32,748 bases of DNA from the IMG/VR virus record IMGVR_UViG_3300043803_001266, positions 1-32,748 of that record, one strand, 5' to 3'. The notes under the pieces were generated by a model. It had not been told where the DNA came from. It saw only the letters and a program-made list of their open reading frames with translations, and made no database searches. Source of the DNA: a virus. The translations under genes were made by a program, and so were the position numbers. The first letter of the stretch is position 1; each line of letters opens with the position of its first letter. This document shows positions 22,288 through 32,748 of the stretch, piece by piece.

Positions 22288-24312
22288 TCAATTATTATAA
22301 ATACCCAAATATATATCGTTATCATTAGCGCTGGATGTAAACCATTCTGGACCTTTGTACATTTGGCCATTTAATTTTGTAGCATTTTTAGCATTTTCTC
22401 CTACAACATCATATTCAATAGTTTTATATGATCTAGTCATTTGTCTAGCTAACATATTAGCAATAAGCAAGGCGCTATATCTATCTTTTCTTAATCTGCC
22501 TTTTTTACCACTAGTTAGTTTTATTTCTGGAGTATCCCATCTATCTCTAGCATTAGGGCCCTGACTAGTTTGTGTCATAACAATTGTGGTTAATTCATTT
22601 TTAAGTTCTTCAATTTCTACAACACATTCGCTAAGATTATCATAAATAGGATTAAGATCTGTTGTTAATATATCCTGTCCTTCTGCTGCTAGCGTTAAAC
22701 CTAGTGTAAGATTATCAAATCTTGGAAATAGCAATACTTTATCTTCCATATCTTTTCGTAAACCATGATTAGCTTGACTAGTCCAATCTGCTCTAGCGAA
22801 TTGTATAAGTTCAAGTATGTGCAAGCCTTGCTGATTATCAGTTTCTTTGGATTTGCTGTAGTCTATAGTTGGCCAAATTAATATTTCTCCATCATTTAAC
22901 TTATCCGGATCATGTAAGGCTTCTTCTATAGCTATACCTCCTCCTTGAGCATCTAATCCTATTCTAGCGCATGGAAAAGTTTTCATTAAATTTCTAATTT
23001 TTCTTGCACAAAAACCATAGAAGTCATGATCTTCTACTAGCCCTGTCTTTTGACGATCTTTAAAATTACTACGATTGGTTGTCCAGCAATATACTACTCT
23101 ATTATGATCATTGTTTAATTCTAAAATAACTATACTAAAATTATCATTTTCTGATGCAGGATCGATACCGTATATGTATTGCTTGTGTGAGGAACCCTTT
23201 ACTATTGCATCAAAAAGTATTGGCCTGCCTTGGGAGTCTGTTATATTTTTTTCTGTTGATACAACACAACTTTCTACTAAACTACGCCTAAAAAATCCTT
23301 CACTGTCCTCAACAAAACAAGCAGCATATTCCATATTATATATACCAGTATGAATAGTGGCTTTTGCTCTAGCAACTTGTTTATCATCCATAAATCCTTT
23401 AGGGATTAATTCATATGGTATTCTTACTATACTATAATCTTTCCAATTAAAATTTTCTGGAACACTTTCTGGAAATACATCTTTAAGTTTATTAATATCT
23501 CCTTTGCTATTAATAATAGTTTTGTATCTATTCCAATATTTAGCAAAATGCTTAAAGGCATAGTCTGCTGTTCCTGATATTATGGCCTGATTGCTCATTT
23601 TTGTGTCTAATGCTTCTAATTCATCATTCCATATACCCATTTCTTGCATCGCTGTTTTTTTAGCTTGTTCTTTGACATTTTGTATTGGACTAGCACTCAC
23701 GGCTGCGAAACCTGAAACAACCGTTTCATAAATATCGGGCGATATTGACGCAAATTCGTCTGCGATAATAATATGTGCTCTTAAACCTCTAATTTTACTA
23801 CCGTCACCCATTGGAATAGCAATAGCCCAGCTATCGCCATATCTCATTGTACATCTATCAACATCTCTTCGTGGACCGTCATCATTACCGTTGAATATGC
23901 TCCTTAGAATTGGGCTATTTCTCCAAATCGTTTCCATATATTCAAAAATCACTTTGCTTTGACGAAATGCTGCACCAACTATAACTATTTTGGTTCCAGG
24001 AATAAAGATACATTTTAATGTAGCATATAATGCTAATAAAAAACTTTTACCAAAACCACGACTAGCAACAAACATTGGAAAAGCTCTATTCCAAAATTCT
24101 TGTAATATTGCTATCTGCACAGGATGTAGTTCAATATTCATTAGCAGTTTGCATGTTGATCCTAAATAGTTCGGATCTCTCATAATTTTTAATAAATGCT
24201 TATCTGGATTTTCTATATCTTCTCTGGATCTATTAATCATAAGATTACGACTAATAGTTAGTTTAGATAAATCTCCTAGACCTAACCATGCATCATCAAA
24301 ATTATATGACAT
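22288..24312 (-). CDS. terL: Large terminase subunit
   Basis: A 674-residue packaging motor. The ATPase part has a Walker A motif ASRGFGKS (residues 83-90), Walker B IIIADE (182-187) and a coupling-type SGTADYAFKHF (from 246). The nuclease part has IYGIDPASENDNFSIVILEL (Asp at about 384), RIGLDAQGGG (Asp at about 454) and a late RKDRYSALLIANMLARQM block, consistent with an RNase H-like fold. I start at MSYNFDDAWL, an ATG that overlaps the upstream stop by 11 bases; an earlier TTG would add 11 residues inside the upstream gene. The subunit would act with a small terminase, for which the 273-residue HTH protein at 26623-27444 is the best candidate. Confidence 0.93.
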   Translation of the reverse strand: MSYNFDDAWLGLGDLSKLTISRNLMINRSREDIENPDKHLLKIMRDPNYLGSTCKLLMNIELHPVQIAILQEFWNRAFPMFVASRGFGKSFLLALYATLKCIFIPGTKIVIVGAAFRQSKVIFEYMETIWRNSPILRSIFNGNDDGPRRDVDRCTMRYGDSWAIAIPMGDGSKIRGLRAHIIIADEFASISPDIYETVVSGFAAVSASPIQNVKEQAKKTAMQEMGIWNDELEALDTKMSNQAIISGTADYAFKHFAKYWNRYKTIINSKGDINKLKDVFPESVPENFNWKDYSIVRIPYELIPKGFMDDKQVARAKATIHTGIYNMEYAACFVEDSEGFFRRSLVESCVVSTEKNITDSQGRPILFDAIVKGSSHKQYIYGIDPASENDNFSIVILELNNDHNRVVYCWTTNRSNFKDRQKTGLVEDHDFYGFCARKIRNLMKTFPCARIGLDAQGGGIAIEEALHDPDKLNDGEILIWPTIDYSKSKETDNQQGLHILELIQFARADWTSQANHGLRKDMEDKVLLFPRFDNLTLGLTLAAEGQDILTTDLNPIYDNLSECVVEIEELKNELTTIVMTQTSQGPNARDRWDTPEIKLTSGKKGRLRKDRYSALLIANMLARQMTRSYKTIEYDVVGENAKNATKLNGQMYKGPEWFTSSANDNDIYLGIYNN

Positions 24313-25334: not shown

Positions 25335-25596
25335 CTTTTTTCTTGTCCGCTACTATTTTTAAAAAAACTGCTTCGTAATAAGTTTCAATGCCCCTGATCA
25401 TTTTATGATGTTCGTAACATAGTGTTATTCCATTGTTAACATCGTATCGTAATCCAGGATGATTTGCCCACGTTTTTATATGATGAGCATTTATCTTTTT
25501 TTTACTATTACAATTGGGCCATTGACAAGTTTTGTTGTCTCTTGTATAGACCCCTTTTCTCCACTGTTTGTATTCTAAAGAATTAAAAAATCTCAT
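25321..25596 (-). CDS. HNH endonuclease
   Basis: A 91-residue HNH protein. The metal-binding cysteines are C24 and C29 (CQWPNC) and C60 with His63 (LCYEHH); the catalytic core is INAHHIKTWANHP (His38-His39) and an asparagine at NNGITLC. The length is normal for a stand-alone phage HNH protein. HNH proteins often sit close to the terminase genes and help cut concatemers during packaging, which fits this operon. The start overlaps the stop of the dehydratase gene as ATGA. It does not look like an intron-borne homing enzyme, because the neighbours are continuous. Confidence 0.88.
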   Translation of the reverse strand: MRFFNSLEYKQWRKGVYTRDNKTCQWPNCNSKKKINAHHIKTWANHPGLRYDVNNGITLCYEHHKMIRGIETYYEAVFLKIVADKKKDDRS

Positions 25597-26633
25597 GAAA
25601 CAACTTTTTTATATTTGCTATGGGCGTATTGTTTAACGTCATAATCCACCATATCTTGTACTAGCTGCTCAAAAGATATTTGTGGTTGCCATCCTAAAAT
25701 ATGATAAGCTTTTGTGGATCGTCCTCGTAAATAATCTACCTCTGCTGGTCTAATAAATTCGCTATCAATTTCCACATAATCTTCATAATTTTTATTAACC
25801 AAATTAAAAGCTATGGATAAAAATTCTTTAATAGAGTGTGATGAGCCGGTGGAGATAACAAAATCATCAGGAATATTTTGTTGTAACATAAGATGCATAG
25901 CGCGCACATAATCTTTAGCATGGCCCCAATCTCTGCAACTATTTAGATTACCAAGTTTAAGTTTTTCATTTGTTAGATTGTTTTGTAGCATACCTATATA
26001 ATTAGTAATTTTTTTAGTAACAAAATTTACGCCGCGTCGTGGACTTTCGTGATTAAATAGTATGCCGCAACAACCAAATAGATTATATCCTTCACGATAT
26101 ATTCTTACCAAATGATGACTAGCTAATTTGCTAGCGCCGTATGGACTTTGAGGCTTAAAAGGAGTAGTTTCGTCTTGAAATTTTTCTATAGTATTTAAAT
26201 CATGATTTTCGGCTGCTGAAAATTCTTGACCAAACATTTCGCTTGTGCTGGCCTGATATAGTTTGGTGTGGGGCGAATAATTTAATAGATTTTCTAGTAT
26301 ATTAACTACGCCGCCGGTATTTACGCTAAAAGTTAAATTGGGCTGTTTGAAACTGGTACCCACATGACTCTGAGCTGCTAGATTATAAAATTCGTGTGGA
26401 GAATACTTTTTGATTATATTACATACAGAATGAGAATCTGTAAGATCACCTTCTTCTAACAAGAATTTAGGGTTATGCAGAAGATGGGATGCTCTTGATA
26501 ATCCATTATTATTGGATAGTCTTCTGTGAATTCCTATTACTTTAGTATACTCTGGTAGTGATAGCAGATATTCGGCCAAGTATGATCCGTCTTGACCTGA
26601 AATTCCTGTAATAACGGCAGTTTTATTTGTCAT
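25593..26633 (-). CDS. gmd: GDP-mannose 4,6-dehydratase
   Basis: A 346-residue extended short-chain dehydrogenase that would convert GDP-mannose to GDP-4-keto-6-deoxymannose, the first step to GDP-fucose and related sugars. It has TGISGQDGSYLAEYL (GxxGxxG, residues 10-16), the EFYNLAAQSHVGTSF block, the catalytic TSEMFG (T130) and SPYGASK (Y165, K169), ESPRRG (196-201) and RDWGHAKDYV, all diagnostic of Gmd. The length is normal and no key residue is missing. It is wedged between the HTH protein and the HNH gene with overlaps on both sides (11 and 4 bases), so it is part of the packaging operon. No reductase partner is visible here. Confidence 0.95.
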   Translation of the reverse strand: MTNKTAVITGISGQDGSYLAEYLLSLPEYTKVIGIHRRLSNNNGLSRASHLLHNPKFLLEEGDLTDSHSVCNIIKKYSPHEFYNLAAQSHVGTSFKQPNLTFSVNTGGVVNILENLLNYSPHTKLYQASTSEMFGQEFSAAENHDLNTIEKFQDETTPFKPQSPYGASKLASHHLVRIYREGYNLFGCCGILFNHESPRRGVNFVTKKITNYIGMLQNNLTNEKLKLGNLNSCRDWGHAKDYVRAMHLMLQQNIPDDFVISTGSSHSIKEFLSIAFNLVNKNYEDYVEIDSEFIRPAEVDYLRGRSTKAYHILGWQPQISFEQLVQDMVDYDVKQYAHSKYKKVVS

Positions 26634-27444
26634 ATTTTTCCACGCTTTCTGGTGTTAAAAAGGGGCGATCTATATTATTATTAGAGTATGAGTGAAGTTG
26701 CTCAAGTTTATTTTTTTGATTAAGAGTGGCTAATTTCAATATTTCCATTTCACGACCTTGTTTTTCTCTTAATTCTTCGTCTTCTAGCATTCGTATTAAT
26801 CCTACCCAAGAGCTTTTACCATCTTCTATTCGTTTGATTCTTTGCTCCCTAGTAGCTTTAAGATCTTTACTAATTTTTTGTTGTTCGTTAAGAAGCTTGG
26901 TATATTCATTAGTATAATTAGCGATACTGTTACGGGCGAATGATAGCTGCGTTTCCAGGTTGGCCAATTTCGGAATATCTCTTTGATCCTCTGATTTAGC
27001 ATACTCTTTATCAACCTCGGTTTGTATTTTTTCAGTGTCGGCTATGTGTCTTTTACGCTCTTTCATACTCCGATTAATAAGAATATCAATAGTAATAAAT
27101 TGTTTAATTTGTAATTCTTCAGCAGGAAGAACATCTTCTCTGAATTGTTTAATTAAACTTACCCAAGTGTTCTCAAAGTATTCTAATTCTCCTGATGTAT
27201 TGTCAAATTGTTTAGTAATTTCGGGCCAAAACGGCTTAGTATGAAGTTTAAGTTTTAAATATTCAAGGTCTGCTATGGATTCTTGGTCAGTAAATAAAAA
27301 GTTTTGTTCCGCATATTTTTGTATCGGGGCTATGTTTCTGTTAAGATTATTAGCAATATCGGCCACAGATAAAGAATGAATATTATCTTTAATATATTTT
27401 TCTTCGTCTAGACTGAGTTGTCCTCTTTTTTTAGGAATAGTCAT
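26623..27444 (-). CDS. HTH and coiled-coil protein, candidate small terminase
   Basis: A 273-residue protein. Residues 8-50 (QLSLDEEKYIKDNIHSLSVA, DIANNLNRNIAPIQKYAEQN) form a helix-turn-helix related to the one in the 82-residue protein at 28266-28514. The remainder is almost wholly helical and charged, with long coiled-coil stretches (ADTEKIQTEVDKEYAKSEDQ, LLNEQQKISKDLKATREQRI). An N-terminal HTH followed by a coiled-coil oligomerisation region is the plan of a small terminase subunit, and the gene lies in the same operon as the large subunit, though four genes away. The call rests on this plan and not on a recognised family. The start overlaps the sigma-like gene as ATGA. Confidence 0.58.
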   Translation of the reverse strand: MTIPKKRGQLSLDEEKYIKDNIHSLSVADIANNLNRNIAPIQKYAEQNFLFTDQESIADLEYLKLKLHTKPFWPEITKQFDNTSGELEYFENTWVSLIKQFREDVLPAEELQIKQFITIDILINRSMKERKRHIADTEKIQTEVDKEYAKSEDQRDIPKLANLETQLSFARNSIANYTNEYTKLLNEQQKISKDLKATREQRIKRIEDGKSSWVGLIRMLEDEELREKQGREMEILKLATLNQKNKLEQLHSYSNNNIDRPFLTPESVEKYDK

Positions 27445-28073
27445 TGGTAATTAGCTATAATATTTAATATAGTTTCTTTAAGTTTATTTAATTCTGCACT
27501 AGGTATTTTTTGTCCGTGTTTTAATTTGATATAAACGGCCCTGTCTGATGGTAGCATATGTTTGTCTATTAGTTCTAGTAGTTCCTTATTTGCAATATCA
27601 CCACAAATACTAGATTCATTACTAAAAACATTCATATCATCTATATTTTGTGGGGTCATTAAATTTTTCTTATTATTATTTCTTTTTTCCCATAGTTTGT
27701 ATAGTTCGCAATCGCTCTTGTTTGAAAATGCTTTACATCCATTGTTTGAGCAGGAAAGAGAAGGATCATTTTCGGGACATTTAAAACAAGGTTTATCGGG
27801 CCTTTGATAGTGATCTCTTTTATAATTAAAAAGTCTATTTCTAACGTGGGTCCATAGGAAGTTTTCTAGGGGCCTTTTGTTATCATATTTATCTAAACAT
27901 TCTAAGCCAAAAATAATAGCTTGTTGTTTCATATCTTCAAAACTATGATATCCAAATTTAAATTTATGTGCTAATTTTTTAGCAACATTATCTATAGCTT
28001 TTAAAAAGTCTTCTTCTTGAACATTATTCGGCAGACAAGGCTTTTGGGTCTTTTTCTTCTTCTTCTTTTTCAT
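27441..28073 (-). CDS. Sigma region 2-like protein with cysteine-rich insert
   Basis: A 210-residue protein with a lysine-rich start (MKKKKKKKTQKP). Residues 22-90 resemble sigma-70 region 2: an initial IDNVAKKLAHKFKFGYHSFEDM, then IFGLECLDKYDNKRPLENFL, then WTHVRNRLFNYKRDHYQRP. It continues with a cysteine cluster (CFKCPENDPSLSCSNNGCKA, then a later C) that could bind zinc, and ends with a helical LIDKHMLPSDRAVYIKLKHG and IPSAELNKLKETILNIIANY, in the position of region 4. Such a protein could redirect host RNA polymerase to phage promoters. The ATG at 28073 lacks a clear ribosome site, so it is probably reached by coupling from the upstream 53-residue frame. Sigma activity is inferred. Confidence 0.72.
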   Translation of the reverse strand: MKKKKKKKTQKPCLPNNVQEEDFLKAIDNVAKKLAHKFKFGYHSFEDMKQQAIIFGLECLDKYDNKRPLENFLWTHVRNRLFNYKRDHYQRPDKPCFKCPENDPSLSCSNNGCKAFSNKSDCELYKLWEKRNNNKKNLMTPQNIDDMNVFSNESSICGDIANKELLELIDKHMLPSDRAVYIKLKHGQKIPSAELNKLKETILNIIANYQ

Positions 28074-28195: not shown

Positions 28196-28223
28196 TTGCT
28201 AACGGTTATGATCGTATTATAAT
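28196..28223. promoter_or_regulatory. Divergent promoter region with shared -10
   Basis: The 80 bases between the divergent genes contain ATTATAAT. On the plus strand TTGCTA and TATAAT are separated by 16 bases (28196-28223), driving the HTH gene. On the minus strand TATAAT reads across 28216-28221 with a weak -35 (TAAAGG, 17 bases before it). Since the two -10 elements share bases, RNA polymerase could occupy only one side at a time. The plus-strand side is fair; the minus-strand side is weak. Confidence 0.5.
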
Positions 28224-28265
28224 AATAAGGTTACTACACCTTTAGTCTAGTTCAAGGAGATAAAT

Positions 28266-28514
28266 ATGAGGTCATCTTACCATAAGTGGAGCACAACAGA
28301 GTTGCAGTATATAAAAGATAATCATGCTATACTAAGCGATGATGAATTAGCATTAAATATAAGCAGAATATCTGGCAACGATCAGATTACAGCACCAATG
28401 ATTAGGAGACAAAGACGAAAACTATCTTTGAAAAAGAGTCGCGGAAGGAAACCCAAAAATAGAAACTTTGTTCAAGATAGTATCGTTAGCGCTGGTATTC
28501 AAGCTTCTAATTGA
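28266..28514 (+). CDS. Small HTH DNA-binding protein, 82 residues
   Basis: The protein starts MRSSYHKWSTTELQYIKDNH and has an HTH-type pattern LSDDELALNISRISGNDQIT, followed by a strongly basic tail (RRQRRKLSLKKSRGRKPKNR) suited to DNA contact. Its first 45 residues resemble the N-terminus of the 273-residue protein at 26623-27444 (TTELQYIKDN versus DEEKYIKDN), so they share a domain. AAGGAG stands seven bases before the ATG. It is alone between a divergent promoter and a terminator, which is typical of a regulator gene and suggests a role in the switch between the early and late sides. The regulatory role is inferred. Confidence 0.78.
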   Translation: MRSSYHKWSTTELQYIKDNHAILSDDELALNISRISGNDQITAPMIRRQRRKLSLKKSRGRKPKNRNFVQDSIVSAGIQASN

Positions 28515-28543
28515 ACATATAGAAGTTGGTATCAGATAAAATT

Positions 28544-28568
28544 GGGGAGCATCATGCTCCCTTTTTTT
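28544..28568 (+). terminator. Intrinsic terminator after the HTH gene
   Basis: A perfect inverted repeat GGGAGCAT-C-ATGCTCCC (28545-28561; in RNA probably a six-base stem with a short loop) is followed by seven T residues. It lies 30 bases after the stop and ends the single-gene transcript. It also marks the boundary between the AT-rich and the more GC-rich part of the window. Confidence 0.92.
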
Positions 28569-28646
28569 ATTAGTTATTAGGGGAATACGGCCAATTATTT
28601 TATGGTGTTCGGATCGTGTTTGCACCACCCCCGGCCGCCGCCAGTT

Positions 28647-28663
28647 TTGAGAATCGTTCTCAA
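28647..28663. promoter_or_regulatory. Palindrome TTGAGAA-N3-TTCTCAA
   Basis: A 17-base perfect palindrome with seven-base arms and a TCG centre. It is the size of an operator. It resembles a Fur-type box, but it also has the TGAGA half-site seen in reverse orientation in the TCTCA-N3-TGAGA sites downstream, so a phage regulator is equally possible. It is not followed by a T tract and is not a terminator. Confidence 0.45.
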
Positions 28664-28694
28664 TAAAATGAAAAAACCCCCCTACTAAGCGGGT

Positions 28695-28879
28695 GACGCA
28701 AAATGCTGTGCAAAATGCTACAGTATGACGCAAAATGCTACAGTGATCCTTACCCCCGTCTCAAATTGAGAATGCTGTAACCCTATATTTTTCAAGGGGT
28801 TATGGAAAATCGTATTTTTTTTCTCGAATGGCACGACATTCGCATATATATCTGGCAACAAAGAAAGAGAGAAAGAAAA
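28695..28879 (+). promoter_or_regulatory. Promoter module copy 1
   Basis: First of three copies of one module. CAAAATGCT iterons start at 28699, 28711 and 28731. A TCTCA-AAT-TGAGA palindrome is at 28759-28771. The 29-bp site TGTAA-N19-TTATG is at 28776-28804. Next come an A/T tract, a TGGCACG...CGC box with GG at 28830-28831 and GC at 28842-28843 (ten bases between), a TATATAT run, and the leader AAGAAAGAGAGAAA at 28861-28874. Spacing from the palindrome to the 29-bp site (17) and from there to the GG (54) is the same in the other copies. This copy has the most diverged 29-bp site. The bases from 28569 to 28694 hold no gene. Confidence 0.78.
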
Positions 28880-29110
28880 ATGGAAAACCTTATCGTCCTC
28901 AACACCGTTTCTGAACTTCGTGATCTGATCAATACCACGACGATGACCACGTTTGTTGGTCGCGTTGCTTTCGCAATGGATCTTCTGGAAAGTGTTCGCC
29001 AGAATGACAACATGATCGAAATCAATCATGAATTGGGATTCTGTGATGATGGTGGATTCATCCAGATTGATGAAATGGGTTACGTGGTCGATGACTATGC
29101 AATCCAGTGA
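28880..29110 (+). CDS. Small early-type protein, 76 residues
   Basis: The protein begins MENLIVLNTVSELRDLINTT and ends in an acidic DEMGYVVDDYAIQ. No family is recognised; a helical N-terminal half and a strand-rich C-terminal half are likely. I use the ATG six bases after the purine leader AAGAAAGAGAGAAA rather than an in-frame ATG 78 bases earlier, which would extend through the promoter and leader. The same leader is found before four other small genes here. Codon use and base composition are clearly less AT-rich than in the late operon. Confidence 0.75.
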   Translation: MENLIVLNTVSELRDLINTTTMTTFVGRVAFAMDLLESVRQNDNMIEINHELGFCDDGGFIQIDEMGYVVDDYAIQ

Positions 29111-29126
29111 TTCCCTATAAGGGGGG

Positions 29127-29154
29127 TTGTGGCGGAAGAAAAGTTTGGTAGGAT
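29127..29154 (+). promoter_or_regulatory. Sigma70-like promoter, GTTTGG family
   Basis: TTGTGG and TAGGAT are 16 bases apart; the spacer ends AAAAGTTTGG, identical or nearly so to the promoters at 29992 and 30889. A small CCCT-ATA-AGGG hairpin (29113-29123) lies between the stop of the upstream gene and the -35. This copy has the least consensus -35 of the three. Confidence 0.68.
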
Positions 29155-29178
29155 CGTAGAAAAGAAAGAGAGAAAAAG

Positions 29179-29364
29179 ATGGTTTACCATGTTGGTGATA
29201 GGTTGAGTGTGGTCTATAGTACTGGCGAATCGTTCACCGGTGAACTGGTTAGCGTTCGTGAGATTCCCAACAAGGGAACGTTGATTCTGGTCAACGATGA
29301 TACGGTGGGCTATCGGTCCATGTATGCCGACAAGGTTGTGAGCGTGATCGTGGAGAATGCTTGA
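29179..29364 (+). CDS. Small beta-barrel-like protein, 61 residues
   Basis: The protein runs MVYHVGDRLSVVYSTGESFT, then a GELVSVREIPNKGTLILVND stretch and a final SMYADKVVSVIVENA. The alternation of strands with GDRLSVVY, GELVSV and GTLILV suggests an SH3-like or KOW-like small barrel; this is a structural guess with no named family. It has the purine leader and its own promoter, and its stop is directly followed by the start of the next gene (TGAATG), so the two are cotranscribed. The 62-residue protein at 31140 has a loosely similar strand order. Confidence 0.72.
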   Translation: MVYHVGDRLSVVYSTGESFTGELVSVREIPNKGTLILVNDDTVGYRSMYADKVVSVIVENA

Positions 29365-29565
29365 ATGGATACTAACTACTTTCAATCGTCGTTCGAGAGT
29401 ATGGAAACGAGTACCATACGATTGTGGCTCCACGAAGCCCAAGTACGACTGCCCCATGAGAGCGGTAGCGTTCGTGAAATACTGAAGGAAGGTATACGCG
29501 CGTCTGCTCGTGAACTGTTGTACAGGTATAGGGAAGAGTCTCGCAGGCTGAACGCTAGAGCGTAA
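29365..29565 (+). CDS. Small helical protein, 66 residues (paralogue of 30935 gene)
   Basis: A mainly helical protein starting MDTNYFQSSFESMETSTIRL and ending in a basic YRYREESRRLNARA. It follows the upstream stop without a gap and has no leader of its own, so it depends on coupling. It aligns with the 64-residue protein at 30935-31129: METSTIRLWLHEAQ versus METDILGRWMVNMQ, and ARELLYRYREE versus AGELLRRYHEN. Function is unknown. The stop codon lies inside the first 29-bp palindrome of the following regulatory pair. Confidence 0.72.
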   Translation: MDTNYFQSSFESMETSTIRLWLHEAQVRLPHESGSVREILKEGIRASARELLYRYREESRRLNARA

Positions 29566-29642
29566 ACCCTTGCACCGTAAGGACTTACGGCGAAATCGGG
29601 CCGCCATTTTTGACGTAACTCCTTATGTATCAAGCACTTACG
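29561..29642. repeat. Pair of 29-bp palindromes, pair 1
   Basis: Site one (29561-29589) is CGTAA-N19-TTACG, and site two (29614-29642) also has perfect CGTAA/TTACG arms with 19 bases between. The starts are 53 bases apart, close to five turns of B-DNA, so proteins bound to both would face the same side. The link between them contains GCGAAATCGGGCCGCC, conserved in pairs 2 and 3. The site-one core CCGTAAG-GA-CTTACGG can also fold as a small hairpin. Confidence 0.85.
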
Positions 29643-29660
29643 TCGCCCCCCAAAGGTGGT

Positions 29661-29841
29661 GTAGCAAAATGCTGTAGCAAAATGCAACACCTGTAGCAAA
29701 ATGCCTCACCTTGGCACACCCCCGTCTCAAAATGAGAATGTCGTAAAGTGTTGTGGCGTAAGGACTTAGGAAGAAAAAAATATTTTTTGCTGAATGGCAC
29801 GGAAAGTGCATTATATAGAGACATAAGAAAGAGAGAAAAGA
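29661..29841 (+). promoter_or_regulatory. Promoter module copy 2
   Basis: Iterons CAAAATG(C/CT) start at 29665, 29678 and 29697; the TCTCA-AAA-TGAGA palindrome is at 29725-29737; the 29-bp site CGTAA-N19-TTAGG is at 29742-29770; a long A/T tract follows; the TGGCACG-N4-GTGCA box has GG at 29796-29797 and GC at 29808-29809; TATATAG comes next; and the leader is at 29825-29838. Palindrome-to-site (17) and site-to-GG (54) spacing match copies 1 and 3. An alternative sigma70 reading is TTGCTG-N17-ATTATA. Confidence 0.82.
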
Positions 29842-29985
29842 ATGAGCAAGATTGAAGTTTACTATTCCGATTGCTGTGGTGTTGAGATTGTTGGTGATAT
29901 CGCTGGTCTCGAATTGTGTCCCCGATGCTGGGAACACTGCGACTGCGTTATCGAGGAAATCGACGATCCATCATGCCCCGCCTAA
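29842..29985 (+). CDS. Zinc-ribbon small protein, 47 residues
   Basis: A 47-residue protein, MSKIEVYYSDCCGVEIVGDI and on, with paired cysteines DCCG (C11, C12) and CPRCWEHCDC (C26, C29, C33, C35). Short proteins of the type CCG...CPxCxEHC are common in phages and are expected to bind one zinc ion. The exact role of such proteins is not known to me. The start follows the purine leader by three bases. The tail is acidic (VIEEIDDPSCPA). It is transcribed from module copy 2. Confidence 0.82.
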   Translation: MSKIEVYYSDCCGVEIVGDIAGLELCPRCWEHCDCVIEEIDDPSCPA

Positions 29986-29991
29986 TAGGGG

Positions 29992-30019
29992 TTGACGCGA
30001 CAGAAAAGTTTGGTAGAAT
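29992..30019 (+). promoter_or_regulatory. Sigma70-like promoter, GTTTGG family
   Basis: TTGACG and TAGAAT are separated by 16 bases, the spacer ending AAAAGTTTGG. It is the best match of the family to the sigma70 consensus. It begins seven bases after the stop of the zinc-ribbon gene, and a CCCC...GGGG inverted repeat overlaps that stop. Confidence 0.85.
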
Positions 30020-30045
30020 CAAGACACAAGAAAGAGAGAAAGAAA

Positions 30046-30360
30046 ATGGAAAAGTTCCCTATTGTCGAACAGTACAAGCGTACAGTGCGTGGTATCTTCT
30101 ACGGTATGGCGATCCCTTGCGACAAGCGTACCGCTGATGGTGGTACGATTACCAGCGAGAAGGTATTGAAGTTCAATCGTTCCGCTCTGCGAAAGATTGG
30201 CAAGAGTAAGATCGAAAAGGCCGACCCCCGCATGGTAGGGGGTGAGGATCGTATGCGTTTTCCAGTTGGCAAGCCTGGCTCCCCCGAAAGAGTGGTTGCT
30301 CTCGCAGAGCAGTACGCTAGCCTCATGGATGATGAGATATCCCCCTTCGTGGGGGATTGA
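30046..30360 (+). CDS. Small basic protein, 104 residues
   Basis: The largest gene of the early-type region, starting MEKFPIVEQYKRTVRGIFYG. The N-terminal two-thirds is basic (ALRKIGKSKIEKADPRM), the end is acidic (ASLMDDEISPFVGD). No family is recognised. The start is chosen after the purine leader (30028-30041); an earlier in-frame TTG would run back into the promoter -35. A hairpin with arms ACCCCC/GGGGGT lies inside the gene at 30224-30243, and another overlaps its last codons. Confidence 0.75.
   Translation: MEKFPIVEQYKRTVRGIFYGMAIPCDKRTADGGTITSEKVLKFNRSALRKIGKSKIEKADPRMVGGEDRMRFPVGKPGSPERVVALAEQYASLMDDEISPFVGD
30339..30357 (+). promoter_or_regulatory. Hairpin at gene end, loop TTCGT
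   Basis: Arms ATCCCCC and GGGGGAT (seven base pairs) enclose a TTCGT loop immediately before the stop codon of the 104-residue gene. No T tract follows, so it is not a standard intrinsic terminator; it could protect the mRNA end or slow the ribosome. The inner part is coding, but the perfect pairing of third positions is unusual. Confidence 0.6.
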
Positions 30361-30386
30361 CATTTGTTCAGTAGATCATAACTTGA

Positions 30387-30468
30387 CGCAAACCCTTGTC
30401 CCATAAGGACTTACGGCGAAATCGGGCCGCCCCGCTCGACGTAAACCCTTGTGCAACAACAACTTACA
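30387..30468. repeat. Pair of 29-bp palindromes, pair 2
   Basis: Sites at 30387-30415 (CGCAA-N19-TTACG) and 30440-30468 (CGTAA-N19-TTACA) are again 53 bases apart, with the same GCGAAATCGGGCCGCC link. The stretch 30361-30663 holds no gene; it contains this pair and module copy 3. Confidence 0.85.
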
Positions 30469-30485
30469 GCGACTCCAAAGGTGGT

Positions 30486-30663
30486 GTAGCAAAATGCTGT
30501 GCAAAATGCTACAGTGTGTGGCAAAATGCTACAGTGCCACGAATCGCGTCTCAAACTGAGAAAATCGTAAATCCTTGAAAATACTAGACTTACGATCCCA
30601 AAAATATTTTTCGGACTTTGGCATGGGAAGTGCATTATATAGAGGTATAAGAAAGAGAGAAAG
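30486..30663 (+). promoter_or_regulatory. Promoter module copy 3
   Basis: Iterons CAAAATGCT start at 30490, 30502 and 30522; the TCTCA-AAC-TGAGA palindrome is at 30549-30561; the 29-bp site CGTAA-N19-TTACG is at 30566-30594; then AAAAATATTTTT; a TGGCATG-N4-GTGCA box with GG at 30620-30621 and GC at 30632-30633; TATATAG; and the leader at 30649-30662. Spacing agrees with the other copies (17, 54). It has the fullest palindromic arms of the three. Confidence 0.84.
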
Positions 30664-30885
30664 ATGAAAATGAGAAAGCCCCCTAAGACTGAAACGATTC
30701 GGAAGAGCATTTACCGTTACGCTTACAATGCGGGTTTCATATTCTCGCAAGAGAACGATGGTTCCGTTCGCCTGTTCGATATCAAGGCGAATTACTGGGT
30801 TTTTCGCGGTTCTAAGGATCGGGCAGTCCAGATGGTTATGGATGACTTGTGGGCAAAGTATTTTAGGCTCCATCCCTCAAAGTAG
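30664..30885 (+). CDS. Small basic protein, 73 residues
   Basis: A protein starting MKMRKPPKTETIRKSIYRYA with a basic N-terminal helix, then GFIFSQENDGSVRLFDIKAN, where strands suggest a small mixed fold, and a C-terminal helix (AVQMVMDDLWAKYFRLHP). Family not recognised. The ATG follows the leader with only one base between. It is driven by module copy 3, and the next promoter begins four bases after its stop. Confidence 0.73.
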   Translation: MKMRKPPKTETIRKSIYRYAYNAGFIFSQENDGSVRLFDIKANYWVFRGSKDRAVQMVMDDLWAKYFRLHPSK

Positions 30886-30888
30886 GTG

Positions 30889-30916
30889 TTGACGCGGCGG
30901 AAACGTTTGGTAAGAT
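30889..30916 (+). promoter_or_regulatory. Sigma70-like promoter, GTTTGG family
   Basis: TTGACG and TAAGAT are 16 bases apart, the spacer ending AAACGTTTGG. Unlike the other two family members it is followed by an ordinary AAGGA ribosome site rather than the purine leader. Confidence 0.82.
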
Positions 30917-30934
30917 TGAAGAAAAGGATTAGAA

Positions 30935-31129
30935 ATGACTGACAGCGAAAAGCAAGTTTTAGATTTTATTAGAAAGATGGAAACCGATATACTTGGAAGA
31001 TGGATGGTAAACATGCAAAGTGTTTCCAGTAATGTTTCCGTCCACGCTAGAACGTTTCCTAATATGTGCGTTAGTTTTGCCGCTGGCGAATTGCTTCGAC
31101 GTTATCACGAAAATAGAAATGATAACTGA
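30935..31129 (+). CDS. Small protein, 64 residues (paralogue of 29365 gene)
   Basis: A protein of 64 residues: MTDSEKQVLDFIRKMETDIL, then a serine-rich, valine-rich middle and AAGELLRRYHENRNDN at the end. It shares the MET..., W and ELLxRY elements with the 66-residue protein at 29365-29565, so the two came from one ancestor. AAGGA lies before the ATG. It is followed by a second gene ten bases on, just as the first paralogue is preceded by one, so the cistron order is reversed. Function is unknown. Confidence 0.72.
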   Translation: MTDSEKQVLDFIRKMETDILGRWMVNMQSVSSNVSVHARTFPNMCVSFAAGELLRRYHENRNDN

Positions 31130-31139
31130 AAGGAAATGT

Positions 31140-31328
31140 ATGAATAGCCTCGATAAAATTCTGTCTGCTATGCGAACTGGCAAGTATGGTAGCGTGGTGG
31201 ATACTAAGGGTAAGATTCATGTTGGCATTATCAATTCACTATTGCGTGAAGATGGCAGTAATAAAAACTGGATCGTAACGGTGAGCAACCGTACAGTTAC
31301 TGAACAAGTGTTCATTCATGCCAGTTAG
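31140..31328 (+). CDS. Small strand-rich protein, 62 residues
   Basis: The sequence starts MNSLDKILSAMRTGKYGSVV, followed by VDTKGKIHVGIINSLLRED and NWIVTVSNRTVTEQVFIHAS, predicted to be mostly beta strands. I use the ATG with an AAGGA site seven bases upstream; a much longer frame upstream overlaps the previous gene and is rejected. Strand order is loosely like the 61-residue protein at 29179. It closes a two-gene transcript; no poly-T terminator follows. A TGGCTATAGCCA palindrome (31363-31374) lies shortly after it. Confidence 0.7.
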   Translation: MNSLDKILSAMRTGKYGSVVDTKGKIHVGIINSLLREDGSNKNWIVTVSNRTVTEQVFIHAS

Positions 31329-31375
31329 GATTGTCTCAGCATAACCTGTCGGTTTGCAAGAGTGGCTATAGCCAG

Positions 31376-31457
31376 CGTAAACCCTTGAACCGTAAGGACT
31401 TACGGCGAAATCGGGCCGCCCCCGGCGACGTAACTCCATATGGGACAAGCACTTACG
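31376..31457. repeat. Pair of 29-bp palindromes, pair 3
   Basis: Sites at 31376-31404 and 31429-31457, both with perfect CGTAA/TTACG arms, are 53 bases apart and share the GCGAAATCGGGCCGCC link. They lie upstream of a sigma70-like promoter rather than a GG-N10-GC module. Between pair and promoter are a degenerate iteron-like AGCAAACGCTGTGC and an AATCTT/AAGATT inverted repeat. Confidence 0.85.
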
Positions 31458-31516
31458 ACGAGTAGCAAAGCAAACGCTGTGCCACAAAAAATAATCTTTT
31501 TTCTAAGATTTTCTGC

Positions 31517-31544
31517 TTGACAGTGTCGATAAGTAGTGTAGAAT
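31517..31544 (+). promoter_or_regulatory. Sigma70-like promoter, GTCGATAAGTA family
   Basis: TTGACA and TAGAAT are 16 bases apart. The spacer contains GTCGATAAGTA, shared exactly with the promoter at 32358. The conserved spacer suggests an operator for a regulator that would compete with polymerase. Confidence 0.85.
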
Positions 31545-31571
31545 CCGACCATCACCCCAACGGAGGTTCTC

Positions 31572-31763
31572 ATGTACGATTTCGAGGACATCAACGCGAT
31601 TCTTGCTGGTATGGCCGACGAGGGTATTCTGGAACCGATGGTCGAGCCGATTGACGAACTCGACTGCCATCCGCTCGACTGGGCAGAAGTAGTCGGATGT
31701 GCGGACGATATTTTTGACGAAGTGTATCTTGACGACGCTGGCAATCCGTGGTATCTTGTTTGA
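31572..31763 (+). CDS. Acidic protein without Lys or Arg, 63 residues
   Basis: A 63-residue protein, MYDFEDINAILAGMADEGIL and on, with 18 acidic residues and no lysine or arginine at all. A GGAGG ribosome site precedes the ATG. It may be helical with an acidic face. It is the first gene of a three-gene transcript; the next gene starts ten bases later and is even more acidic. No family is recognised. A DNA-mimic or protein-sequestering role is possible only by analogy. Confidence 0.76.
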   Translation: MYDFEDINAILAGMADEGILEPMVEPIDELDCHPLDWAEVVGCADDIFDEVYLDDAGNPWYLV

Positions 31764-31773
31764 AAAGGAGAAA

Positions 31774-32049
31774 ATGATGAGTCACCCCGATCCGCTGTAT
31801 GATCCCGATAACTCTTACGAGGATGATGATATGAATTACGATGATCACGACGATTTCTATCAAGAGGTCGAAGATTACAACGATTATTACATCGAGGAAA
31901 ATAGCGTGGACGATGACGACTACGATGATAGCATGGATGGTGACCATGATAGTGCCATGACTTCAGCCGGTTGGGGAACCGATGAAGATTATGGATCGTA
32001 TCACGATGATATTGACGCTTATCACGATTACTACGGGGAGGATTTCTGA
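31774..32049 (+). CDS. Extremely acidic Asp/Tyr-rich protein, 91 residues
   Basis: This protein starts MMSHPDPLYDPDNSYEDDDM and has about 28 Asp, 7 Glu and 13 Tyr in 91 residues, five His, and no Lys or Arg. The longest Asp run is DDDD. I choose the ATG five bases after AAGGAG; a second ATG directly follows, so residue 1 or 2 may be the true start. A longer in-frame extension overlaps the previous gene and is rejected. Such a charge pattern resembles known phage DNA-mimic or anti-restriction proteins, or a disordered acidic binder. The Tyr content is unlike Ocr and suggests low order. The next gene begins two bases after its stop. Confidence 0.78.
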   Translation: MMSHPDPLYDPDNSYEDDDMNYDDHDDFYQEVEDYNDYYIEENSVDDDDYDDSMDGDHDSAMTSAGWGTDEDYGSYHDDIDAYHDYYGEDF

Positions 32050-32051
32050 AT

Positions 32052-32258
32052 ATGATCGATTACATTTGCGATAACATCACGGTTGACAATGATTCGGAAG
32101 ATGGTATTTTTCTTGGAAACAAGATGGTTGTAATTTCTGTTCCGGAGTGTGGCGGTACTGATCCTTTGGACAGGTATGACCACCTTGTGTCAATATCCGG
32201 AGCGTTGGAAAATGCTCTGGACTGCGGTGTACGCTCGTTCAGTTACAGTAAGATTTGA
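32052..32258 (+). CDS. Small protein, 68 residues
   Basis: The protein starts MIDYICDNITVDNDSEDGIF and continues LGNKMVVISVPECGGTDPLD with strand-forming VVISV and a C-terminal helix (ISGALENALDCGVRSFSYSK). It has an acidic first third. A GGAGG site lies ten bases before the ATG inside the previous gene. Family not recognised. Its stop is directly followed by the fourth 29-bp palindrome pair. Confidence 0.72.
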   Translation: MIDYICDNITVDNDSEDGIFLGNKMVVISVPECGGTDPLDRYDHLVSISGALENALDCGVRSFSYSKI

Positions 32259-32340
32259 AGCAAACCCTTGCCGCGTAAGGACTTACGACGCGGCGGGCGG
32301 CACGATTTTGATGTAAGTGCTTACTGCACAAGCACTTAGA
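32259..32340. repeat. Pair of 29-bp palindromes, pair 4
   Basis: Sites at 32259-32287 (AGCAA-N19-TTACG) and 32312-32340 (TGTAA-N19-TTAGA) keep the 53-base offset, but the outer bases and the link have diverged (GACGCGGCGGGCGGCACG in place of the usual link). The second site has an internal AAGTGCTTACTG. These are the weakest sites, which helps define which positions are constrained. Confidence 0.75.
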
Positions 32341-32357
32341 AAATATTGCAGTTTTTC

Positions 32358-32386
32358 TTGACAAGCGTCGATAAGTATGGTATCCT
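32358..32386 (+). promoter_or_regulatory. Sigma70-like promoter, GTCGATAAGTA family
   Basis: TTGACA and TATCCT are 17 bases apart; the spacer contains GTCGATAAGTA, as at 31517. The start codon is only six bases past the -10, so the transcript would be nearly or wholly leaderless. Confidence 0.78.
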
Positions 32387-32392
32387 AACACC

Positions 32393-32563
32393 ATGAGCAA
32401 GCGAAAAAAGAGTATCGTTGTGCAACTGAATGTTCGTCCGTTGTGGGCTCTTGGTACGGGCCATCACGACCACAAGAGCGGAAGCGGACAGCACGACAAT
32501 CGACCCAAGCGACTTCGCACTCGCGAAGCCAAGAATCGACAGGCCGTGAGGGATGGTTGGTAG
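32393..32563 (+). CDS. Small strongly basic protein, 56 residues
   Basis: The protein reads MSKRKKSIVVQLNVRPLWAL, then GTGHHDHKSGSGQHDNRPKR and LRTREAKNRQAVRDGW. It is very basic (many Arg, Lys and His), suggesting nucleic-acid binding. Small phage proteins with R-P-L..AL followed by a GxH motif and a basic end are familiar, but I cannot name one. The start is six bases after the -10, with no ribosome site, implying leaderless translation. An overlapping plus-strand frame (from about 32443) is a shadow. Confidence 0.72.
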   Translation: MSKRKKSIVVQLNVRPLWALGTGHHDHKSGSGQHDNRPKRLRTREAKNRQAVRDGW

Positions 32564-32622
32564 TCCTACCTAATCCTACGGATTTGGATTGTGTGGATGT
32601 AGTCAGCCAAAAAATAGATCAC

Positions 32623-32650
32623 TTGACAAAATAGATTTCTCGACTAAAAT
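32623..32650 (+). promoter_or_regulatory. Sigma70-like promoter
   Basis: TTGACA and TAAAAT are 16 bases apart. The spacer differs from both other families. It drives the last, cut-off gene, which has an AAAGGAG ribosome site. Confidence 0.85.
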
Positions 32651-32670
32651 ATCGTTCAAAGGAGAAAACG

Positions 32671-32748
32671 ATGCTTACTCTTCGACATTTTCGTAAGATC
32701 GAGAAGGAAATCAAGGGACTGAAAAAGTGCCAAAGTATTTATAGCCGG
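32671..32748 (+). CDS. Partial gene, N-terminus only
   Basis: The first 26 codons are visible, MLTLRHFRKIEKEIKGLKKC and on, and the frame is open at the window edge. An AAAGGAG site lies correctly before the ATG and a promoter lies upstream, so the gene is likely real. The visible part is a basic amphipathic helix. Nothing more can be said. Confidence 0.68.
   Translation, partial: MLTLRHFRKIEKEIKGLKKCQSIYSR

Follow-up and report, generated by a model that had tools for sequence, protein, structure and literature searches.

Sigma54-like promoters with enhancer-like upstream dyads in a group of uncultured phages

The IMG/VR virus record IMGVR_UViG_3300043803_001266, probably a fragment, was analysed over its entire 32,748 bases (the window) and contains three ~180-bp modules, designated A, B and C, each located immediately upstream of the start codon of a small gene. 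Every module has a near-perfect -24/-12 element of the sigma54 type, preceded by three repeats (iterons) that are 17-19-bp dyads placed like enhancers. The explanation we favour, with a probability of about two in three, is that the modules are enhancer-dependent sigma54-type promoters of early phage genes that use the sigma54 polymerase of the host and a host activator of the NtrC type. Sigma54 promoters are silent until an ATP-driven activator, usually linked to nutrients or stress, opens them, and phages are generally taken to use sigma70, sigma factors of their own or their own polymerases. In the modules, host RNA polymerase with host sigma54 would bind the -24/-12 box in a silent closed complex, and a host AAA+ NtrC-type enhancer-binding protein would occupy the three dyads, ~120-155 bp ahead of the start, and, by looping over, would open this complex. 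The transcript would then begin a few bases ahead of a polypurine leader that is common to the sigma70-type promoters of the phage.

The three modules and their box

The left 28 kb of the window, mostly 29-42% GC, carry tail, terminase-like and sugar genes, predominantly in minus-strand orientation. The GC content rises to ~46% from ~28.5 kb on, where the genes are small and on the plus strand; all three modules are found here, as listed below with the neighbouring promoters and box.

28694..28742, +, module A, three upstream dyads with GCA-AAA-TGC cores, centres 28702, 28714 and 28734
28759..28771, no strand, module A, TCTCA-N3-TGAGA palindrome
28777..28803, no strand, module A, 27-bp palindrome of the GTAA..TTAC family, 11/15
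28829..28844, +, module A, sigma54-type -24/-12 box TGGCACGACATTCGCA, 19.1 bits; start predicted at ~28855 on the basis of the -12 C
28861..28874, +, module A, polypurine leader
28880..29110, +, 76-amino-acid gene behind module A
29127..29154, +, weak sigma70-like promoter, 7/12; leader next at 29162
29660..29708, +, module B, three dyads, centres 29668, 29681 and 29700
29725..29737, no strand, module B, TCTCA-N3-TGAGA palindrome
29743..29769, no strand, module B, 27-bp palindrome, 13/15
29795..29810, +, module B, sigma54-type box TGGCACGGAAAGTGCA, 19.4 bits; start predicted at ~29821
29825..29838, +, module B, leader
29842..29985, +, 47-amino-acid gene behind module B
29992..30019, +, sigma70-like promoter TTGACG-N16-TAGAAT; leader next at 30028
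30485..30533, +, module C, three dyads, centres 30493, 30505 and 30525
30549..30561, no strand, module C, TCTCA-N3-TGAGA palindrome
30567..30593, no strand, module C, 27-bp palindrome, 12/15
30619..30634, +, module C, sigma54-type box TGGCATGGGAAGTGCA, 16.3 bits; start predicted at ~30645
30649..30662, +, module C, leader
30664..30885, +, 73-amino-acid gene behind module C; most orthologues follow sigma70-type promoters
31469..31484, -, reversed sigma54-like box TGGCACAGCGTTTGCT, 20.6 bits, without iterons, upstream of a sigma70-like promoter at 31517-31544

The original prediction, a promoter module repeated three times, is borne out by recomputation: the modules are real and the distances claimed for them hold. 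The iterons, CAAAATGC, start at 28699/28711/28731, 29665/29678/29697 and 30490/30502/30522, with offsets of 12/20, 13/19 and 12/20; iterons 2 and 3 of copy B terminate in A and C instead of T. This core is module-specific, with a single further window copy at 23544. The TCTCA-N3-TGAGA palindrome of each copy (28759, 29725, 30549) follows the first iteron by 60, 60 and 59 bases in modules A, B and C and precedes the GG-N10-GC box by 70 bases in all three, and the leader follows the box by 32, 30 and 30. In a gapped alignment of the three copies the elements are 74-87% identical and the spacers 41-59%. The elements are the more constrained, and the promoter-module reading looks right.

The long palindrome, given as 29 bp in the original prediction, is present in all three modules in a 27-bp form, GTAARNNCTTNNNNNNNAAGNNNTTAC, starting at 28777, 29743 and 30567 and matching at 11, 13 and 12 of 15 positions, respectively. 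It is not module-specific: there are 12 matches at ≥11/15 within 28201-32748, where shuffled sequences predict 1.1, and 9 more in the left 28 kb. Pairs of these palindromes, 53 bases apart, also occur outside the modules (29562, 29615, 30388, 30441, 31377, 31430, 32260, 32313), and such pairs are probably the operator of another regulator. Similarly, the leader, AAGAAAGAGAGAAA, occurs five times in the window and two copies (29162, 30028) follow sigma70-like promoters; leader and long palindrome are thus common to the sigma70-type promoters and the modules.

The GG-N10-GC box is as originally described, but its identity as a sigma54-type core had been missed. Scored with a matrix built from the 29 intergenic Salmonella sigma54 sites in Table 3 of PMC3844500, the boxes reach 19.4, 19.1 and 16.3 bits, within the range of the training sites (15.7-22.6). 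The three boxes and the reversed box at 31484 (20.6 bits) are the top four sites in the window; the next best score 14.0 bits on the plus and 10.8 bits on the minus strand. By these scores the boxes fit the sigma54 pattern, GG and GC 10 bp apart in a TGGCACG-N4-TTGCW context, and the predicted starts are 4-6 bases ahead of the leader.

Iterons and box in related phages

Relatives of the window were fetched by protein, not by motif, through a 104-amino-acid neighbour gene; the best 80 of 108 confirmed stretches gave 79 distinct IMG/VR loci, numbered from L001, that total 1.2 Mb. The terminase is present in 68 and the sigma-like gene in 71 of the 79. L001 is not an independent case, because it matches the tested window proteins at 100%. 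Among GenBank phages no relative was found for 28200-32748 by DNA, nor for two proteins; the terminase matches 43 GenBank phage records, of which the 20 listed share 22-30% identity with it across no more than 78% of its length. The 79 relatives contain 229 sites of ≥16 bits, with near-identical loci kept; Markov sequences gave 3, 9 and 5 such sites, and the reversed matrix gave 4. Counted by consensus, there are 214 distinct sites with at least 10 of 12 sigma54 positions in the relatives' loci versus 28, 27 and 14 in shuffled sequence.

Promoters were also collected irrespective of the box, anchored on the leader AAGAAAGAGAG (A[AG]GA[AG]AGAGAG followed by a start codon). The 120 non-redundant leaders comprise 84 preceded by a sigma70 core, 21 by a sigma54 box at the same place and 15 by neither at the thresholds used (82, 20 and 15 in a first pass, with 3 assigned to both). 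At least two GCA-N3-TGC iterons lie within 260 bases upstream of 17 of the 21 sigma54-class leaders but of none of the 84 sigma70-class leaders and none of the 15 others (Fisher 3.7e-16 for sigma54 versus sigma70 class, kinship ignored), and the TCTCA-N3-TGAGA palindrome likewise accompanies 9 of 21 versus 0 of 84. Among leader-anchored promoters the iterons are therefore exclusive to the box, and the sigma54 class has upstream sites such as those described in PMC3844500, where activating sites are mostly 70-150 bp upstream. The two classes are bimodally separated: a sigma70 core is lacking at ≥9/12 from 20 of the 21 sigma54-class promoters, and in the only one at this threshold, L018, it overlaps the promoter's own box. 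The predicted start, relative to the leader, has a median of -4 for the sigma54 class (n=21) and -2 for the sigma70 class (n=72, narrower anchor).

In a second, blind test IMG/VR was scanned for pairs of GCAAAATGC alone, which yielded at least 117 new loci. Among the matches listed, 26 loci share window genes, and 24 of these have a sigma54 box 30-190 bases downstream, whereas only 2 of the 91 loci without window genes have a downstream box. The two exceptions among the 26 are L093, in which the pair lies at the contig end, and L107. As L139 and L188 are contigs already in the set, the 24 box-bearing loci are not all independent.

The 45 distinct iteron contexts give the consensus GTGTWGCA-AAA-TGCTACAC, a 17-19-bp dyad with a 3-bp centre, from which single window copies deviate. 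This is the geometry of NtrC-type sites; of 7 half-site positions, 5 agree with the NtrC consensus, from which the dyad sequence differs. Measured from first to last site, 53 non-redundant iteron sets, a few of which are due to chance or lie beside reversed boxes, have spans of 19-22 (13 sets), 31-33 (18), 52 (4) and 63-64 bp (14), with the remaining four at 12, 27, 43 and 59. In 49 of the 53 the span is thus near 2, 3, 5 or 6 helical turns (p ~3e-14 for phase at 10.5 bp, kinship ignored). L017 and L027 retain the dyads with an altered core, and L022, L024, L025 and L029, without the usual iterons, have a different upstream dyad of the CTGCCA-N3-TGGCAG type; the first three reach the two-site threshold for this type and L029 is outside the tested set. 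At a stricter score, which 0.7% and 0.9% of random windows reach with two dyads, 26 of 42 modules have at least two dyads of the first type, 5 have the second type and 11 have neither.

The original prediction took the spacing as the mark of one assembled protein complex. Close relatives do keep it, with iterons at ~-130/-117/-98 and the palindrome at -70, but by the criterion set in the original prediction, the spacing in homologous phages, a rigid complex with invariant spacing is unsupported: more distant relatives use other iteron sets. Their iteron spans are 52 or 63-64 bp, the proximal site is mostly 69-95 bp from the box in forward modules, and TCTCA-N3-TGAGA is mostly absent, although retained in L020. 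In L071, L099 and L132 a TGCCA-N3-TGGCA-like dyad occupies the slot of this palindrome, centred ~-64 from the box. That the spans stay near whole helical turns is easier to reconcile with enhancers that loop flexibly than with a single fixed assembly.

Recent copying had also been discounted in the original prediction. Elements are kept above spacers, but the copies share extended similarity, which a duplicated cassette would explain as well. It is nevertheless very improbable that the modules are just a recent duplication, or replication iterons, without promoter function, given that every window module directly precedes a start codon and that the association with leader and box holds across diverged relatives. 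Replication iterons were rejected as the identity of the repeats because the iteron sets accompany box and leader.

Judged by orthologues elsewhere in the phage group, the cassette is interchangeable with sigma70-type promoters. Orthologues of the module A gene (28880) are preceded by a box and three iterons in 9 distinct loci, four of them labelled 'weak/none' by the script as their box, at -74, lies beyond the cut at -70, and, in 10, by a sigma70 core that has no iterons. For the module B gene, 2 loci have the box and 7 a sigma70 core (1 weak), and for the module C gene, 1 and 13 (1 weak), with L001 counted among the box-bearing loci for all three genes. The gene comparisons leave out the window frames at 31139, 31775 and 32392, whose translations were out of frame. 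The boxes also have a preferred genomic location in one relative of 230,691 bp, in which 8 of 9 sites of ≥15 bits fall within 161.3-167.3 kb. The GC content of this block is 0.39-0.41 versus ~0.32 across most of the record, and nine tRNA genes follow it at 175.5-178.6 kb. In the window, a GC step from ~33% to 46% occurs between 28000 and 29000, so that the boxes are in GC-richer DNA in both. We infer that the block contains early genes because of its promoters and small genes.

The probable source of sigma54 and its activator, and a second layer of boxes

No Sigma54_activat domain was found in 65 virus records (the window and 49 + 15 relatives; ~4.96 Mb in records that may be incomplete). The 64 relatives account for 4.93 Mb, and the control search was positive in 14 of 14 genomes. 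Neither Sigma54_DBD nor HTH_8 was found in the 41 virus records searched for them, and a phage-encoded sigma54 or activator was rejected on these negative domain searches. If the promoters are of the sigma54 type, both factors are then most likely supplied by the host. An activator encoded by the phage but missed through incomplete records or divergence from the Pfam model is improbable; none of the records is known to be complete, but 17 of the 65 negative records exceed 100 kb, the largest being 231 kb.

Several observations weigh against host sigma54 and a host activator as the explanation. Relatives of the terminase are scattered over four unrelated metagenome-assembled genome bins (Alphaproteobacteria, SAR202, Gemmataceae and Flavobacteriales), so a host assignment by the terminase was rejected; sigma54 was detected in three of the four but not in the SAR202 bin. 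A search of 398 Pseudomonadota genomes for the dyads found 19 genomes with a match versus 8 with the reversed control, no genome matching at more than one place, and the four bins had no matching dyads; with so slight an excess and none in the bins, no host regulon was recognised. The Alphaproteobacteria bin, which has the closest phage terminase, has sigma54 and five Sigma54_activat matches, three of them strong, but is at most a possible host, as a P-II gene was not found in it and no matching dyads are near its sigma54 or Sigma54_activat genes. In addition, the 11 of 42 modules noted above do not reach two dyads under the stricter threshold, although at least 8 of these show GCAAAATGC iterons, both association tests are uncorrected for shared ancestry, and L151 and L189 share no window gene yet carry iterons and box. 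An AT-rich TATATA often follows the box, in the place of a -10 element. It is not constant among modules, being absent from L019, L029 and L133, for example, and an extended -10 or ordinary sigma70 promoter was rejected for the modules on this inconstancy and the lack of a sigma70 core in 20 of 21. Finally, boxes are also found reversed and paired 2-4 bp apart.

Loci L001 to L079 contain 93 reversed sigma54-like box contexts. A sigma70-like core (≥9/12) is present within 130 bases downstream of 73 of these, versus 23.5% of random places, and at least two iterons are within the same 130 bases in 10. The 94 non-redundant minus-strand boxes have the profile TTTGGCAYR-N2-ATTTGCT. Gaps between boxes are quantised: 2-4 bp for convergent pairs (19), 7-8 (9) or 16-18 (6) for divergent pairs and 10-11 (5) or 21-22 (3) for tandem boxes; a single forward tandem has a gap of 29. 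Several relatives have a reversed box beyond the iterons, so that the enhancer is flanked by a box on both sides. As two polymerases cannot both fill a convergent pair, the sequence would seem to have a second reader; either the sites are occupied singly, or they are bound by free sigma54 or some other protein.

The reversed and convergent boxes are the main reason for retaining, as unlikely, a different explanation, in which the TGGCAC-N5-TGC box would be bound by a DNA-binding protein, from phage or host, whose specificity only resembles that of sigma54. The modules would then be promoters for sigma70 or for a phage sigma factor, with TATATA as the -10, activated in the manner of T4 MotA by the box protein and an iteron binder. 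The quantised arrays, the sigma70-like cores that follow 73 of 93 reversed boxes and the frequent TATATA in the sigma70-class -10 position are all consistent with this, as is a sigma region-2-like protein encoded at 27441-28073 on the minus strand (E 1.3e-6 to phrog_1740 and E 4e-4 to a PDB sequence), which may be a late, gp55-type sigma factor. Foldseek matches of this protein to sigma factors, including T4 gp55, are weak, with none at E ≤0.001. On the other side are the fit of the box to the sigma54 matrix, the modules without TATATA, the near absence of sigma70 cores from the sigma54 class and the distant iterons, whose variable distance suits looping rather than activation by contact. The box sequence and place also differ from the MotA consensus, and the three modules have no TATAAT.

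More speculatively, and with low probability, this whole phage clade may use host sigma54 for some of its early programme and mark many of its sigma70 promoters with helically phased arrays of reversed boxes, read by silent sigma54 polymerase or a phage mimic of sigma54 and serving as insulator, sink or shut-off switch. We know of no such use of sigma54 sites. More dyads, for example CCTTACGATATTGTAAGG and TGTCAA-N6-TTGACA, are found near sigma70 promoters in L045, L057, L061, L067, L070 and others, in which GTCGATATAAG is frequent after the -10. Elsewhere in the window, 28266-28514 encodes a second putative neighbouring regulator, a three-helix protein (predicted local distance difference test score of the model, 80) with no fold match at E ≤0.001, and a sulfotransferase-like gene (812-1396) and a GDP-mannose 4,6-dehydratase gene (25593-26633) are located among structural genes.

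Relation to known systems

Bacterial sigma54 promoters of the glnA type have NtrC-type upstream activating sequences. The modules resemble these in a GG-N10-GC box within the Salmonella score range and in upstream dyads, the outer sites ~32 bp apart in the window, but differ in being on a phage, in their triple sites with overlapping dyads, in a dyad sequence that departs from the NtrC consensus, in a leader shared with sigma70 promoters and in the reversed boxes nearby. T4 middle promoters have a MotA box at -30 and a TATAAT -10; here too an activator box could take the place of the -35, but the module box is 16 bp, two-part and at ~-26 to -11, and there are distant iterons. Control of cyanophage genes by the host PhoBR system, reported from experiments in PMC10976474, similarly wires phage genes to host sensing, whereas the sigma54 and AAA+ activator proposed here are deduced from sequence. 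A sigma54 theme has also been described for Pectobacterium phage Q19, in which gp2 is putatively sigma54-like by a weak HHpred match (PMC7693777); that case is a protein match, unlike the promoters described here, for which no sigma54 gene was found in 41 virus records. The matches listed in the open-licence PMC literature included no comparable phage promoter: in the matching text of a jumbo-phage paper whose abstract names rpoN, this gene concerns the flagellar receptor (PMC11877940), and in that of a sigma54 regulon survey phage is mentioned only as phage shock protein (PMC12316311).

Most likely, then, this is a known kind of promoter in a new setting, a sigma54-type cassette in phages, alongside a further and so far unexplained layer of sigma54-like sites. 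An uncultured phage group appears to drive some early genes from sigma54-like promoters that may answer to a host regulator. If so, a host signalling protein would act as the gate for these genes, the enhancer dyads would be a lead to the activator and through it to the host, and the orthologous genes found behind both types of promoter would constitute a natural experiment on the purpose of the gate.

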